Shown piece by piece: positions 10-2,912 of a DNA stretch of 43,583 nt. The number at the start of each line of letters is the position of its first letter. Within the stretch, counting starts at the first letter, position 1. The stretch comes from Pseudobutyrivibrio sp. (GTDB lineage: Bacteria > Bacillota > Clostridia > Lachnospirales > Lachnospiraceae): positions 1-43,583 of the forward strand of contig JAIKWH010000030.1 of the NCBI GenBank assembly GCA_024684955.1, given 5' to 3'. Below the pieces are notes generated by a model, which worked only from the letters and a program-made list of their open reading frames with translations, did not search any database and was not told where the DNA came from. The translations under genes and the position numbers were made by a program.

Positions 10-819
10 CTACAGCAAAAATTCTTTTATTTTCTTTTCAACAAGCTTCACATCAATTGGAGCCTCCGCCGATTCCATAGTAATAATCAAATCTCTACCT
101 AACAGATAATCATTTTTCTCATAGCCTTGTATCTTCTTGAAGTTCTTTGTTGCATACTCTATATCTGAAACAATTCCTAAATGCTCCCAATATATAGTCT
201 TTCGTGTTCTAATGTTTAAAACCACAAAATCAGGGTAAATAGTGTTATATCCCAGCTCAAGCATTGGCTCATATTGGTATGGCACTTTGTACTTTTCCAA
301 AGCATCAGCAATAATCTTCTCAGATTTAGAGCGCACCATCTCACCTCGATTTGTGCGATATATTCCATCTTCGGGAAATGAGTTTTGCTGACCTGGGTGA
401 TTAGACAGCCATTTTGCAATATAACTATCCTCTGGTTCTATTATCGGAACTATCACATGCTTCCTAGCTTCCGGCAATTTTTCATATAATACTGAAATAT
501 CACTTATATCGTAGTTTGAAATAAACTTATCAAGTTTCTTTCTTAATTCAACAAGCTTTTTATCTGTTGCTAAGGCATAATCTCTTTGAATAAGTCCGTG
601 AACAAGCTTACTTTTCTCTTTTCCCGCATATATACGCTTACCTGTTTCTTTATCAACCAAATAATATTGGTCGCACCCCCGTACCGTTGAAGCTTTTACG
701 CCACAGTCTGGCAACTTCTTGAGTTTGGATAAATTTTTAGTATTATTTTTAATCAATTCATCTAGTTCTTTTAGCTGTTCTACTAATTCTTCTTTGTAAT
801 TTCTCAACTCTTCCTCCAT
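10..819 (-). CDS. PD-(D/E)XK nuclease-like protein of unknown role
   Basis: The 269-residue protein has two parts. The N-terminus (about 1-120) is charged and helical, with a small conserved-looking patch around LPDCGVKAS and QYYLVDKETG. The C-terminal half resembles a restriction-endonuclease fold: E167 in RSKSEKII, PD at 196-197 in YPDFVVLN, and E212-H213 in YWEHLG, spaced as in PD-(D/E)XK-like enzymes of the PDF…WEHxG kind. I recognise similar uncharacterised proteins as common in gut Clostridia (from memory, no search). The function is unknown; a DNA-end nuclease, mobile-element or defence role are all possible. The ATG at 819 has only a weak AAGAA upstream instead of a strong Shine-Dalgarno. 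The first box of the inverted-box array lies 14 bases upstream of the start, so the array forms its 5' region. The gene is more AT-rich than neighbouring guaA, consistent with acquisition. Confidence 0.6.
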   Translation of the reverse strand: MEEELRNYKEELVEQLKELDELIKNNTKNLSKLKKLPDCGVKASTVRGCDQYYLVDKETGKRIYAGKEKSKLVHGLIQRDYALATDKKLVELRKKLDKFISNYDISDISVLYEKLPEARKHVIVPIIEPEDSYIAKWLSNHPGQQNSFPEDGIYRTNRGEMVRSKSEKIIADALEKYKVPYQYEPMLELGYNTIYPDFVVLNIRTRKTIYWEHLGIVSDIEYATKNFKKIQGYEKNDYLLGRDLIITMESAEAPIDVKLVEKKIKEFLL

Positions 820-832
820 TTTTCTTCAGTTG

Positions 833-1132
833 TGCATCCATATTTAATACTTCTACTAATTAGGATGCATAAACAATATTACAATTCTTCAGCTATGCAT
901 CCTTTGTAAGGCTTTTACCATTATGGGATGCGTAAATCACCTTATTTTTCCTTGATTTCTACCATATACTTCTTATTCCCAACGTATTATGCAACCAATT
1001 TTTCAATTAGACCAATTTGGGATGCATAGTGTCTGATGCTTATGCATCCCAAATTAGAGTTTTTAATTAACGGGATGCACAACTAAAATTTGGTATACAT
1101 CCTTGCTAGCCAAATCAAGGTTTTGGGATGCA
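833..1132. repeat. Array of five TGCATCC-N23-GGATGCA inverted-box units
   Basis: Ten copies of the box GGGATGCAT or its complement lie in strictly alternating orientation. They form five units, each a left box TGCATCC, exactly 23 AT-rich bases, and a right box GGATGCA: 833-869, 896-932, 990-1026, 1043-1079 and 1096-1132. Three boxes carry one substitution each (929-932 TGCG, TGCAACC at 990, TACATCC at 1096). The 23-base spacers differ from one another. Gaps between units are 26, 57, 16 and 16 bases, so the last three units recur every 53 bp. The leftmost unit abuts the start of the minus-strand nuclease-like gene. The array could be a set of operators or iterons, a series of small RNA hairpins, or recognition sites of the adjacent protein. 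Confidence 0.85.
1014..1055. repeat. 15-bp perfect inverted repeat inside the box array
   Basis: AATTTGGGATGCATA at 1014-1028 is perfectly complementary to 1041-1055, with a 12-base loop. It joins the right box of the third array unit to the left box of the fourth. No T-tract follows on either strand, so it does not look like an intrinsic terminator. Confidence 0.8.
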
Positions 1133-1133
1133 T

Positions 1134-1315
1134 TGTCCTCTATAAACCTCAAATAAATCTAATAAATTCACCCTGGATAAGTGGCGAAATGAAACAATCT
1201 GCCTAGATAGTGATAGAAAAATATCATCTTTCAAATAGATGATAGAAATATAACCATTTAGCATAAAAATGTCAACACCAATACATTGCATATTGTCATT
1301 TTATTGTCACAAAAT
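1134..1315. other. Non-coding AT-rich stretch
   Basis: I see no credible gene between the box array and the guaA terminator. The only structure noticed is an 8-bp inverted repeat, TATCATCT at 1222-1229 and AGATGATA at 1237-1244, with a 7-base loop. A related GTGATAGAAA sequence lies just before it. Its function is unknown. Confidence 0.5.
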
Positions 1316-1357
1316 CAAAAAGCCCCGAGAACATTGAAATTTCAATGTTCTCGGGGC
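1316..1357 (-). terminator. guaA intrinsic terminator
   Basis: The span 1322-1357 is a perfect 18+18 palindrome with a GC-rich base (GCCCCGAGAACATTG and its complement). On the minus strand it is followed by TTTTTGATTTT. It lies directly after the guaA stop codon at 1365. Confidence 0.95.
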
Positions 1358-1364
1358 CTAAAAC

Positions 1365-2912
1365 CTATTCCATCTCCACAGTGCCTGGTGGCTTAGAAGT
1401 CAAATCGTAGAATACGCGGTTGACGCCCTTGACCTCATTTATGATGCGGCTCATGACGCGCTGGAGGACGTCGAATGGAATCTCAGAGGCCTCGGCTGTC
1501 ATGAAGTCTACAGTCTCGACGGCGCGGAGTACTACTGCATAATCGTAGGTACGCTCATCTCCCATTACACCAACTGATCGCATGTTGGTAAGGGCTGCAA
1601 AATACTGGTCTGGGAGTTTATCAAGGCCAGCCTCGGCCAGTTCTGTTCTATAGATGTAGTCGGCATCCTGTACGATGCGGACCTTTTCTGCTGTAACCTC
1701 ACCGATGATACGAATTCCAAGGCCTGGGCCAGGGAATGGCTGACGGAATACAAGATATTCTGGCAGGCCCAACTCTAGACCTACCTGACGGACCTCATCC
1801 TTGAAAAGGTTGCGAAGTGGCTCGATGATTTCCTTGAAATCAACATAGTCAGGAAGGCCGCCAACATTGTGGTGGGACTTGATTACAACTGACTCTCCCC
1901 CAAGGCCTGACTCCACAACGTCAGGGTAAATTGTGCCCTGGGCCAGGAAGTCCACAGCCCCGATTTTCTTTGCTTCTTCTTCAAATACTCTGATGAATTC
2001 CTCGCCGATGATTTTGCGCTTGCGCTCTGGCTCTTCTACGCCGGCCAGTTTTGCGTAATATCTATCTGCTGCATTAACCCGGACAAAGTTGATATCGAAA
2101 GACCCATTTGGTCCAAATACACTTTCTACCTCATCCCCTTCATTTTTTCTGAGAAGTCCATGGTCTACAAATACGCAGGTCAACTGCTTACCAATTGCCT
2201 TTGCAAGAAGGGCTGCAAGCACTGATGAGTCAACGCCACCTGAAAGAGCAAGTAACACCTTGCCTGCGCCAACTCTTTCACGAATTTCTGTGATGGTGTG
2301 CTCAACGAATGAGTCCATACGCCATGACCCTTCTGTACCACAAATATTACGAACAAAGTTGTGGAGAATGTCCTTTCCCTGAACTGTATGTAGCACCTCA
2401 GGATGGAACTGGATAGCGTATAGTTTTTTATCCTCACAGGCTGCTGCTGCAACTGGGCAGTCTGCAGTGTGGGCAATTATTTCAAAACCAGGAGCAGTTT
2501 TTGAAATATAGTCAAAGTGGCTCATCCAGACGATGGTGGACTTGTCTACACCAGCAAACAAACTATTGCTTGCACCATCAATAAATGTCTCTGTCTTGCC
2601 ATACTCTCTGACAGGAGCCTTTTCCACCTTGCCACCTAAGATATGCATCATAAGCTGGGCGCCATAGCAGAGTCCAAGGACTGGGATGCCAAGTTCAAAA
2701 AGCTCTTTGGAATAGGTAGGTGCCCCATCCACATAGCATGAATTTGGACCACCGGTAAGGATGATGCCCTTTGGATTCATGGCCTTGATCTGCTCGATAG
2801 GGGTGCGGTAAGAATAAATCTCACAATAGACGTTACATTCTCTGACGCGCCTGGCAACCAACTGGTTGTACTGACCGCCAAAATCAATAACAATGACTTT
2901 CTCCTGATTCAT
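1365..2912 (-). CDS. guaA: GMP synthase (glutamine-hydrolysing)
   Basis: This enzyme converts XMP, ATP and glutamine to GMP, the last step of guanine nucleotide synthesis, in the cytoplasm. The N-terminal class I glutamine amidotransferase domain (about 1-190) shows GGPNS, the nucleophile Cys82 in GLCYGAQ, and the His170/Glu172 pair in FHPEV. The ATP pyrophosphatase P-loop LSGGVDSS is at 223-230, followed by the C-terminal dimerisation domain ending KPPGTVEME. The length of 515 aa is usual for GuaA. An AAGGAG ribosome site lies 7 bases before the ATG. The gene has its own promoter and a strong terminator, so it appears monocistronic. No purine riboswitch fold was evident in the short leader. 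Confidence 0.97.

Follow-up and report, generated by a model that had tools for sequence, protein, structure and literature searches.

The five inverted-repeat units that lie directly upstream of a nuclease-like gene in a contig of Pseudobutyrivibrio sp. are very probably sites on duplex DNA that the N-terminal half of the cognate protein reads. Across the family of homologous genes, arrays of this form were associated with the gene, boxes of the same orientation were phased with the DNA helix, box sequence covaried with the reader half of the protein, and in one natural case array and reader half had been swapped jointly. The best explanation of these observations, to which about an even chance is given, is that the array may serve as a phased platform of sites for the adjacent nuclease-like protein, holding and limiting the enzyme. 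We infer direct binding by the window protein, the lack of cutting at the array, and restraint as its purpose. Members of this nuclease-like family, which is present in many copies in gut and rumen bacteria, seem to keep their recognition code in the form of an array at the locus itself. Dozens of matched pairs of protein and DNA box and one natural domain swap are now available, and the system offers a direct test of DNA as the restraint of a nuclease and might provide a collection of domains that read DNA and whose targets are known.

Array and neighboring genes in the window

The window, which is the whole stretch of DNA analyzed (43,583 nucleotides; GenBank assembly GCA_024684955.1, contig JAIKWH010000030.1), is the whole contig of its assembly. 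Positions 833 to 1132 contain five TGCATCC-N23-GGATGCA units, directly upstream of the minus-strand gene at 10 to 819 (Table 1). Every unit is exactly 37 bp long with N23 inside, including those with the three imperfect boxes, and the gaps between units are 26, 57, 16, and 16 bp, in agreement with an earlier note on this DNA. That note had placed the centers of paired boxes 33 bp apart; with 7-bp boxes, the distance within a unit is 30 bp. It had also assigned most boxes to one helical face from center-to-center steps of 20, 30, and 61 bp. The helical regularity lies between boxes of the same orientation, with unit starts stepping by 63, 94, 53, and 53 bp, or 6.0, 8.95, 5.05, and 5.05 turns of 10.5 bp. 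The step over the gap at 933 to 989 is 93 to 94 bp in homologous loci L036, L041, and L044, and the corresponding long step is 95 to 96 bp in L007, L046, and L049, all of which carry another box. This gap may contain a site for another factor. A nine-turn step within the array was common to two box types.

Table 1. Features of the window and the basis of their annotation
Feature	Positions	Strand	Basis or remark
Nuclease-like gene, 269 aa, member of a multicopy family	10..819	-	Homologs, alignment
N-terminal half, residues 1 to about 112, putative box reader	484..819	-	AlphaFold2 model; box covariation; natural swap
C-terminal nuclease-like domain, residues about 145 to 269	13..387	-	PADLOC PDC-S68, invariant residues
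Array unit	833..869		Perfect
Array unit	896..932		One mismatch (right box ends in G)
Array unit	990..1026		One mismatch (left box TGCAACC)
Array unit	1043..1079		Perfect
Array unit	1096..1132		One mismatch (left box TACATCC)
Long gap	933..989		Unit step across it, 94 bp (9 turns)
Promoter-like TTGACA-N17-TATATT for the gene	1247..1275	-	Consensus match only
Perfect 18-bp inverted repeat, likely guaA terminator	1322..1357		Sequence
Neighboring gene, presumably guaA (GMP synthase)	1365..2912	-	ORF list

In the assembly from which the window comes (2,258,945 bases, 86% complete), the five places of the array were the only matches to the unit pattern at zero or one mismatch, a search that the earlier note had proposed. 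A reversed-pattern control with up to two mismatches gave no matches in the same assembly. When the 43.6-kb window was searched de novo for alternating inverted 7-mers, exactly one array was returned; five shuffles returned none. A looser unit pattern (up to three mismatches) gave 8 matches compared to 2.6 expected, and the three outside the array look like chance matches.

The array falls between the promoter-like site, which is on the gene's strand (1275 to 1247), and the start codon. The hexamers of this site, their spacing, and their order were identical in all eight GGATGCAT-type loci that were scored for promoters. The neighboring gene is one that, from its sequence, we take to be guaA, and the slot adjacent to guaA is occupied by different clades of the nuclease-like family in related strains. 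Comparison of the window to Rfam gave six matches at 1238 to 1373, all below gathering scores.

Association and helical phasing across the gene family

A total of 106 homologous open frames were collected, near-duplicates and two partial frames included. At least four inverted 7-mer pairs were present upstream in 76 of the 96 loci with at least 500 bp of upstream sequence, with a mean of 13.3 pairs per locus compared to 1.1 in shuffles. For a stricter test, five near-duplicates were dropped, at least 600 bp of upstream sequence was required, and an array was defined as one 7-mer that occurs without mismatch at least five times in the 330 bp upstream and is either palindromic or present in both orientations. 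Upstream arrays under this definition were found in 57 of 91 loci versus 3 of 273 shuffles; among the 34 loci lacking one, some have four boxes or a downstream array, and many have neither. Box sequences differed by subgroup and included GGGATGCAT, TTACGGAA, AACTGTAA, GACACGCAAA, CAGCCGTAA, and others, which suggests that each nuclease would read its own private array.

The association with the gene was also seen in 800 kb of one related genome (2,500 N), where an array lay no more than 500 bp upstream of four of the five family ORFs and of 1 of 667 other ORFs (P = 3e-9). The first array finder gave 16 raw hits in these 800 kb and 4 in one shuffle. Nine of the 16 were located inside coding sequence, several of them AAGCTT-like words, and were not counted as arrays; the other seven were intergenic, with four preceding family ORFs.

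A box could be called without the use of spacing in 67 of 96 usable loci, and in 60 of these 67 a same-orientation step of 40 to 130 bp occurred at least twice. Modal steps were 51 to 53 bp (21 loci), 61 to 65 bp (19 loci), 71 to 75 bp (13 loci), 83 to 85 bp (4 loci), and 94, 95, and 100 bp. Over the 60 loci, a period of 10.5 bp gave the best fit to these steps (R = 0.83; phase, 0.06; P ~ 1e-18, assuming independent loci), and with one locus per 50%-identity group the result was similar (n = 39, R = 0.79, P ~ 2e-11). Across the gene family, the selection on geometry that had been proposed from the window array is borne out, as is the link to the nuclease-like gene. The phasing points to what proteins bound on one face of a duplex would require and is hard to explain by RNA hairpins, and double-stranded DNA, not RNA, is therefore favored.

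Promoter position was considered as proof of operator function and was dropped. Among the 56 of 64 loci with a promoter-like site scoring at least 9, the site preceded the array in 30, was situated within it in 9, and separated it from the gene in 17, so that no rule on promoter position could be drawn.

Constancy of boxes and drift of inner segments

Within the GGATGCAT group, the boxes hold and the 23-base interiors drift. Between the window and L036, whose protein is 83% identical, differences were found at 4 of 70 bases in the boxes and at 59 of 115 in the interiors. Differences from L035 (96% protein identity) amounted to 1 of 70 box bases and 5 of 115 inner bases, and those between L039 and L042 amounted to 0 of 56 and 12 of 92, respectively. 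Unit starts in the window, L035, and L036 lie at about -312, -259, -206, -112, and -49 from the gene, and unit positions depart from this pattern in L037, L038, L040, and L043. In close strain pairs, the inner segments differ by point changes at the same positions. The array had no matches to phages and one chance-level match to plasmids; together with the point changes, this is not the pattern of CRISPR-like variable segments from foreign DNA.

Covariation of box and N-terminal half

The protein set comprised 119 distinct sequences, 67 of them with a confident box, giving 2,211 pairs. CATCCCA and GGATGCA are register-shifted versions of one box, and tallies that counted the two as different boxes were left out of the analysis. 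When residues 1 to 112 were at least 0.6 identical, the box was the same in 54 of 56 pairs, compared to 32 of 2,155 pairs below this identity. Among the 231 pairs with a C-terminal identity of at least 0.55, box sharing was separated with an AUC of 0.98 by the N-terminal half and 0.79 by the C-terminal half. Four pairs had a C-terminal identity of at least 0.9, of which three share a box (N-terminal identity, 0.94 to 0.99) and one does not (0.44). Relatives with a C-terminal identity to the window protein of at least 0.6 divided in the same manner. All 10 with an N-terminal identity (residues 1 to 75) of at least 0.65 have the GGATGCAT box in some register, versus none of the 16 with an N-terminal identity of at most 0.49, including L008 and L191 with no clear box; the C-terminal identities of these 10 and 16 relatives overlap. 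In a contrary case, L014 and L010 share a GACACGC box at an N-terminal identity of only 0.35, and the L014 array is located downstream. A correlation of box and protein similarity over all 2,211 pairs was dropped in favor of the identity threshold above; since only proteins with close N-terminal halves have matching boxes, the correlation was nearly flat (N-terminal half, rho = 0.06).

A natural swap was found beside guaA, where L043 (Pseudobutyrivibrio ruminis DSM 9787) carries ATGCATCC boxes and G792 carries AACTGTA boxes. From about nucleotide 347 of the gene onward, 60-column blocks of the two sequences are 95 to 100% identical, with one at 83%, versus block identities of 0.15 to 0.65 before this point. 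The alignment is 959 bp long, is 91% identical overall, and extends into the next gene. At this one chromosomal site, array and N-terminal half differ together beside a near-identical predicted nuclease half, which supports the reading of the boxes by the N-terminal half. The swap evidence is one pair, in which an ATG is missing from the expected position in L043 and a TAA was counted in the extended frame. Because of the missing ATG, the L043 copy may use another start or be inactive.

The nuclease-like protein

The nearest named relatives of the gene belong to Pseudobutyrivibrio, with that of L035 being 96% identical. The 269-aa protein had no match above the cutoff in Pfam and no match in NCBIfam. 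Its last ~125 residues matched the C-terminal end of PADLOC PDC-S68 (E = 1.4e-29). The PDC-S68 models have 1,202 to 1,273 positions, of which mainly the last ~130 to 180 match family proteins; in L103, one of five proteins compared to PDC-S68, the match starts at residue 53. Residues invariant in 34 aligned members include, among others, S164, K165, E167, Y183, E184, D197, F198, E212, H213, G215, Y222, and E249.

An AlphaFold2 model of the full protein had a mean pLDDT of 91.3 and a pTM of 0.70. The modeled N-terminal half contains a long helix (residues 9 to 32), three strands between residues 40 and 64, and a second long helix (67 to 102), and the modeled C-terminal part is mixed alpha/beta. 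Residues 1 to 115 modeled alone had a pLDDT of 86.3, and this model had no convincing match to a known DNA-binding fold (best E = 0.037, prefoldin). Foldseek searching of the PDB gave weak matches to R2 endonuclease (the R2 retrotransposon protein), Card1, and REase-like folds, none at an E value of ≤0.001, and searching of a viral library gave three matches (E = 3e-5 to 7e-4; TM-scores of 0.26 to 0.29 by query length), one of which is named as an endonuclease. PHROGs yielded weak matches only (best E = 0.0028), some of them endonuclease-type. The PD-(D/E)XK nuclease superfamily is marked by a restriction-endonuclease-like fold and conserved acidic residues in the active site, and the features bearing on membership in it are invariant E167, D197, and E212-H213 and the PDC-S68 match, along with the absence of a PDB match at the threshold above. 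By its invariant residues, the PDC-S68 match, and the model, the protein is predicted to be nuclease-like and of a restriction-endonuclease-like type.

Distribution of the gene family

Homologs were found in 126 of 397 genomes sampled from the same taxonomic family and in 28 of 29 from the same genus, where a single genome had as many as 11 matches, counting partial ones. In a sample of the phylum, 18 of 398 genomes had a match; the match was full length in five, all from the window's own family, and was restricted to the nuclease part in the other 13. Searching of plasmids with the protein gave nine records, none of which covers 80% of the query, and searching of phages gave three, including an unannotated record of 4.2 kb that covers 83% of the query. 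Viral contigs contained 27 candidate stretches, of which 8 encode relatives; in each of these, the similarity lies in the nuclease part. Where the nuclease domain occurred alone in other bacteria (L125 to L137), 8 of 13 matches were in open frames of >600 aa, and eight of the nine plasmid matches (H4 to H12) were in annotated AAA ATPases or RecQ/RecD-like helicases, the remaining record being unannotated. The family matches of G790, G791, G797, G799, G808, G813, G814, G815, and G816 contain in-frame stops; in G791, the stop may precede the true start. Because one or two such stops occur in the matched stretches, decay of family gene copies may be common.

Array positions and orphan arrays

Arrays are usually upstream of the gene. 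A same-box array is also found downstream in L024, L074, L077, L081, and L093, and arrays are downstream only in L014, L023, L026, and L096, where 207 to 885 bp of downstream DNA was at hand. These downstream-array loci contain no second family gene; because of the short downstream sequence, the downstream-only arrays may be tied to a gene further on. Their position means that they therefore cannot be simple promoter operators.

Orphan arrays, which share a box with gene-linked arrays but are located far from the gene, were found in related genomes. In the 800-kb stretch, an orphan GGATGCAT-type array was likewise intergenic. Among the 29 genus genomes, pattern counts reached 36 and 29 TACGGAA units in G153 and G808 and 20 GGATGCA units in G811, counts that include gene-linked arrays and some chance matches (0 to 4 per genome in a reversed-pattern control). 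Of the 11 genomes that have a close GGATGCAT-type gene, 9 contain at least five units of that type, versus 5 of the 18 that lack such a gene (hand count, P = 0.008), and five genus genomes had at least five GGATGCA units and no close cognate gene among the matches listed. The earlier note had asked whether arrays always sit beside homologs and had regarded scattered units with no link to the gene as the sign of a common regulator site or a simple degenerate repeat. This outcome occurs in part: because of the orphan same-box arrays in related genomes, the tie between array and gene is not universal, although no orphan array was found in the window's own incomplete assembly.

The flanks of 20 further regions, picked among the matches listed, contained varied neighbor genes, with acetyltransferase-like and other small genes recurring near orphan arrays (by eye). 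An orphan stretch of ~870 bp (87% identical) occurs in two different gene contexts (L205:3128-3997 and L208:2583-3420); by eye, it contains a terminator-like hairpin, a GGATGCAT array, AACTGTA-type pairs, and a promoter-like end. Arrays of other boxes (ATTACAG and GGTAGTA) were observed at L209:291-485 and L212:798-1045, a few kilobases from GGATGCAT orphan arrays. Beside guaA in OR37 (L051:4650-5240), the array and the gene start are kept and the protein match covers residues 158 to 234 only, so that the array remains and most of the reader half is gone. Empty-site comparison of L146 to G792 (both flanks) and to L043 (right flank only) revealed replacement of an intergenic stretch, with no target duplication and no ends at boxes seen by eye.

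Proposed role and alternative explanations

In the proposed mechanism, the N-terminal half of the neighboring protein would read the array as a series of double-stranded DNA sites in phase with the helix. Several protein copies would bind in alternating orientation on one face of the DNA, giving the nuclease a private platform that loads the protein without serving as an efficient cleavage substrate. The array would throttle the gene, here by its position between promoter and start codon, and would titrate free enzyme, and reader half and array would be inherited and exchanged as one specificity module with the nuclease half kept. Restraint and autoregulation of a dangerous enzyme would fit the position of the array in the window and its size. 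Points against the proposed mechanism are the lack of a convincing fold match for the N-terminal model, the 34 of 91 loci with no upstream array under the strict definition, the box shared by L014 and L010, the orphan arrays, and the downstream-only arrays. It is possible, if doubtful, that the locus is a one-gene selfish or defense module whose antidote is DNA, with the phased array acting as a sponge that keeps its own nuclease from doing harm. As part of this sponge reading, and held just as tentatively, array and reader half would form one exchanged cassette by which cells diversify private nuclease codes.

The arrays might instead mark where a small mobile module ends or is exchanged and so form a platform for mobility or recombination, which we consider rather unlikely. 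The nuclease would then cut or bend DNA at phased arrays so that gene and array spread, with orphans as relics or nonautonomous copies, to which the same rather low probability applies. Observations that would agree with such mobility are the five loci in which same-box arrays flank the gene on both sides, the multiple matches per genome (up to 11, some with in-frame stops), the filling of the guaA slot by different clades, the orphan arrays with their ~870-bp stretch common to two contexts, and the array that L051 retains ahead of a deleted gene. Most arrays, however, were found on one side only, the empty-site comparison amounts to intergenic replacement with neither target duplication nor box ends, and the joint swap is explicable by ordinary homologous recombination. 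Less probable still is a protein that mainly controls its own transcription and the genes behind orphan arrays, with nuclease activity secondary. Regulation of this kind would suit the intergenic position of orphan arrays, the promoter-like end of one shared stretch (by eye), and the placement of the window array between promoter-like site and gene, but the genes beside orphan arrays are varied by eye, the nuclease-type residues are invariant, and downstream-only arrays exist.

It is highly improbable that the array acts as transcribed hairpins, with a stem and a 23-base loop, in the role of an RNA antitoxin or guide. The 10.5-bp phasing argues against this, as do the 17 of 56 scored loci whose best promoter-like site separates the array from the gene, the arrays downstream of the gene, the change of inner segments by point mutation, and the lack of a phage match beside one chance-level plasmid match. 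In favor of RNA, a promoter-like site precedes the window array, whose sense RNA is more stably folded than 100 shuffles (z = -4.66), as would be expected of inverted repeats; by eye, some units of L037 and L038 also depart from the usual box in both of their boxes at once. Stem mismatches were 91 G-T to 71 A-C compared to a background of 49 to 44, with no clear bias, in a weak test to which single tandem arrays such as L030 (15 of 91) contribute a large share. Of the two alternatives that had been raised for the units, a protein on DNA boxes is favored by phasing and downstream arrays, and an RNA is disfavored by phasing and point mutations.

Comparison to known systems

The earlier note knew of no described element of this form. 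Pfam, NCBIfam, PHROGs, PADLOC, and PDB sequences contained no description of the pairing of array and nuclease, nor did the literature as searched by title and start of abstract, a search with most subscription journals and preprints outside its scope.

REP repeats adjoin a RAYT gene. REPs are described as short palindromes, usually in >100 copies per genome, and the repeats of REP/BIME elements as alternating regularly in orientation (PMC2817692). RAYT (TnpA-REP) transposases are described as HuH enzymes that act on single-stranded REPs and have coevolved with their cognate repeats (PMC8266576). The likeness lies in alternating repeats next to the gene and a nuclease-type protein coevolved with cognate repeats, whereas RAYT is a HuH enzyme and the protein here is predicted to be restriction-endonuclease-like, with boxes that are far apart and phased on duplex DNA. 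No Pfam (above the cutoff) or NCBIfam match identified a HuH/Y1 partner, and residues, PDC-S68 match, and model are restriction-endonuclease-like. Units have 23-base interiors and number five in their own genome, and no more than 36 pattern matches occurred in any of 29 genus genomes with two boxes searched. REP/RAYT is the nearest system in logic and fails on enzyme type and repeat form.

Specificity subunits of type I restriction-modification systems have an exchangeable recognition part beside a constant catalytic part. The family resembles them in this arrangement but differs in that the locus itself carries the recognition sequence, in array form. In the neighbor lists, no methylase of the type I kind was noticed by eye. 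PDC-S68, a candidate defense protein in PADLOC, has a related C-terminal nuclease domain, but only as part of larger proteins, as the length of its models indicates. In ToxIN, a type III toxin-antitoxin system, a repeat array is located beside a nuclease gene, and RNA repeats bind the toxin in type III systems. TIGR-Tas likewise has a repeat array beside a nuclease gene and is RNA-based (PMC12045711). ToxIN and TIGR-Tas share with the present loci the repeat array adjoining a nuclease gene but are RNA-based, whereas phasing here follows the double helix. The autorepressing homing endonuclease I-TevI is reported to bind an operator of the gene that encodes it and to cut little at this site (PMC2988022). 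I-TevI is a GIY-YIG enzyme on a promoter-overlapping operator, in contrast to the many phased boxes, some also downstream, and the different protein seen here; it is a precedent for a nuclease that occupies its own operator and cuts it poorly. In an autorepressing endonuclease, occupation of the enzyme's own operator lowers expression; what the present loci show on this point is the position of the array relative to the promoter-like site.
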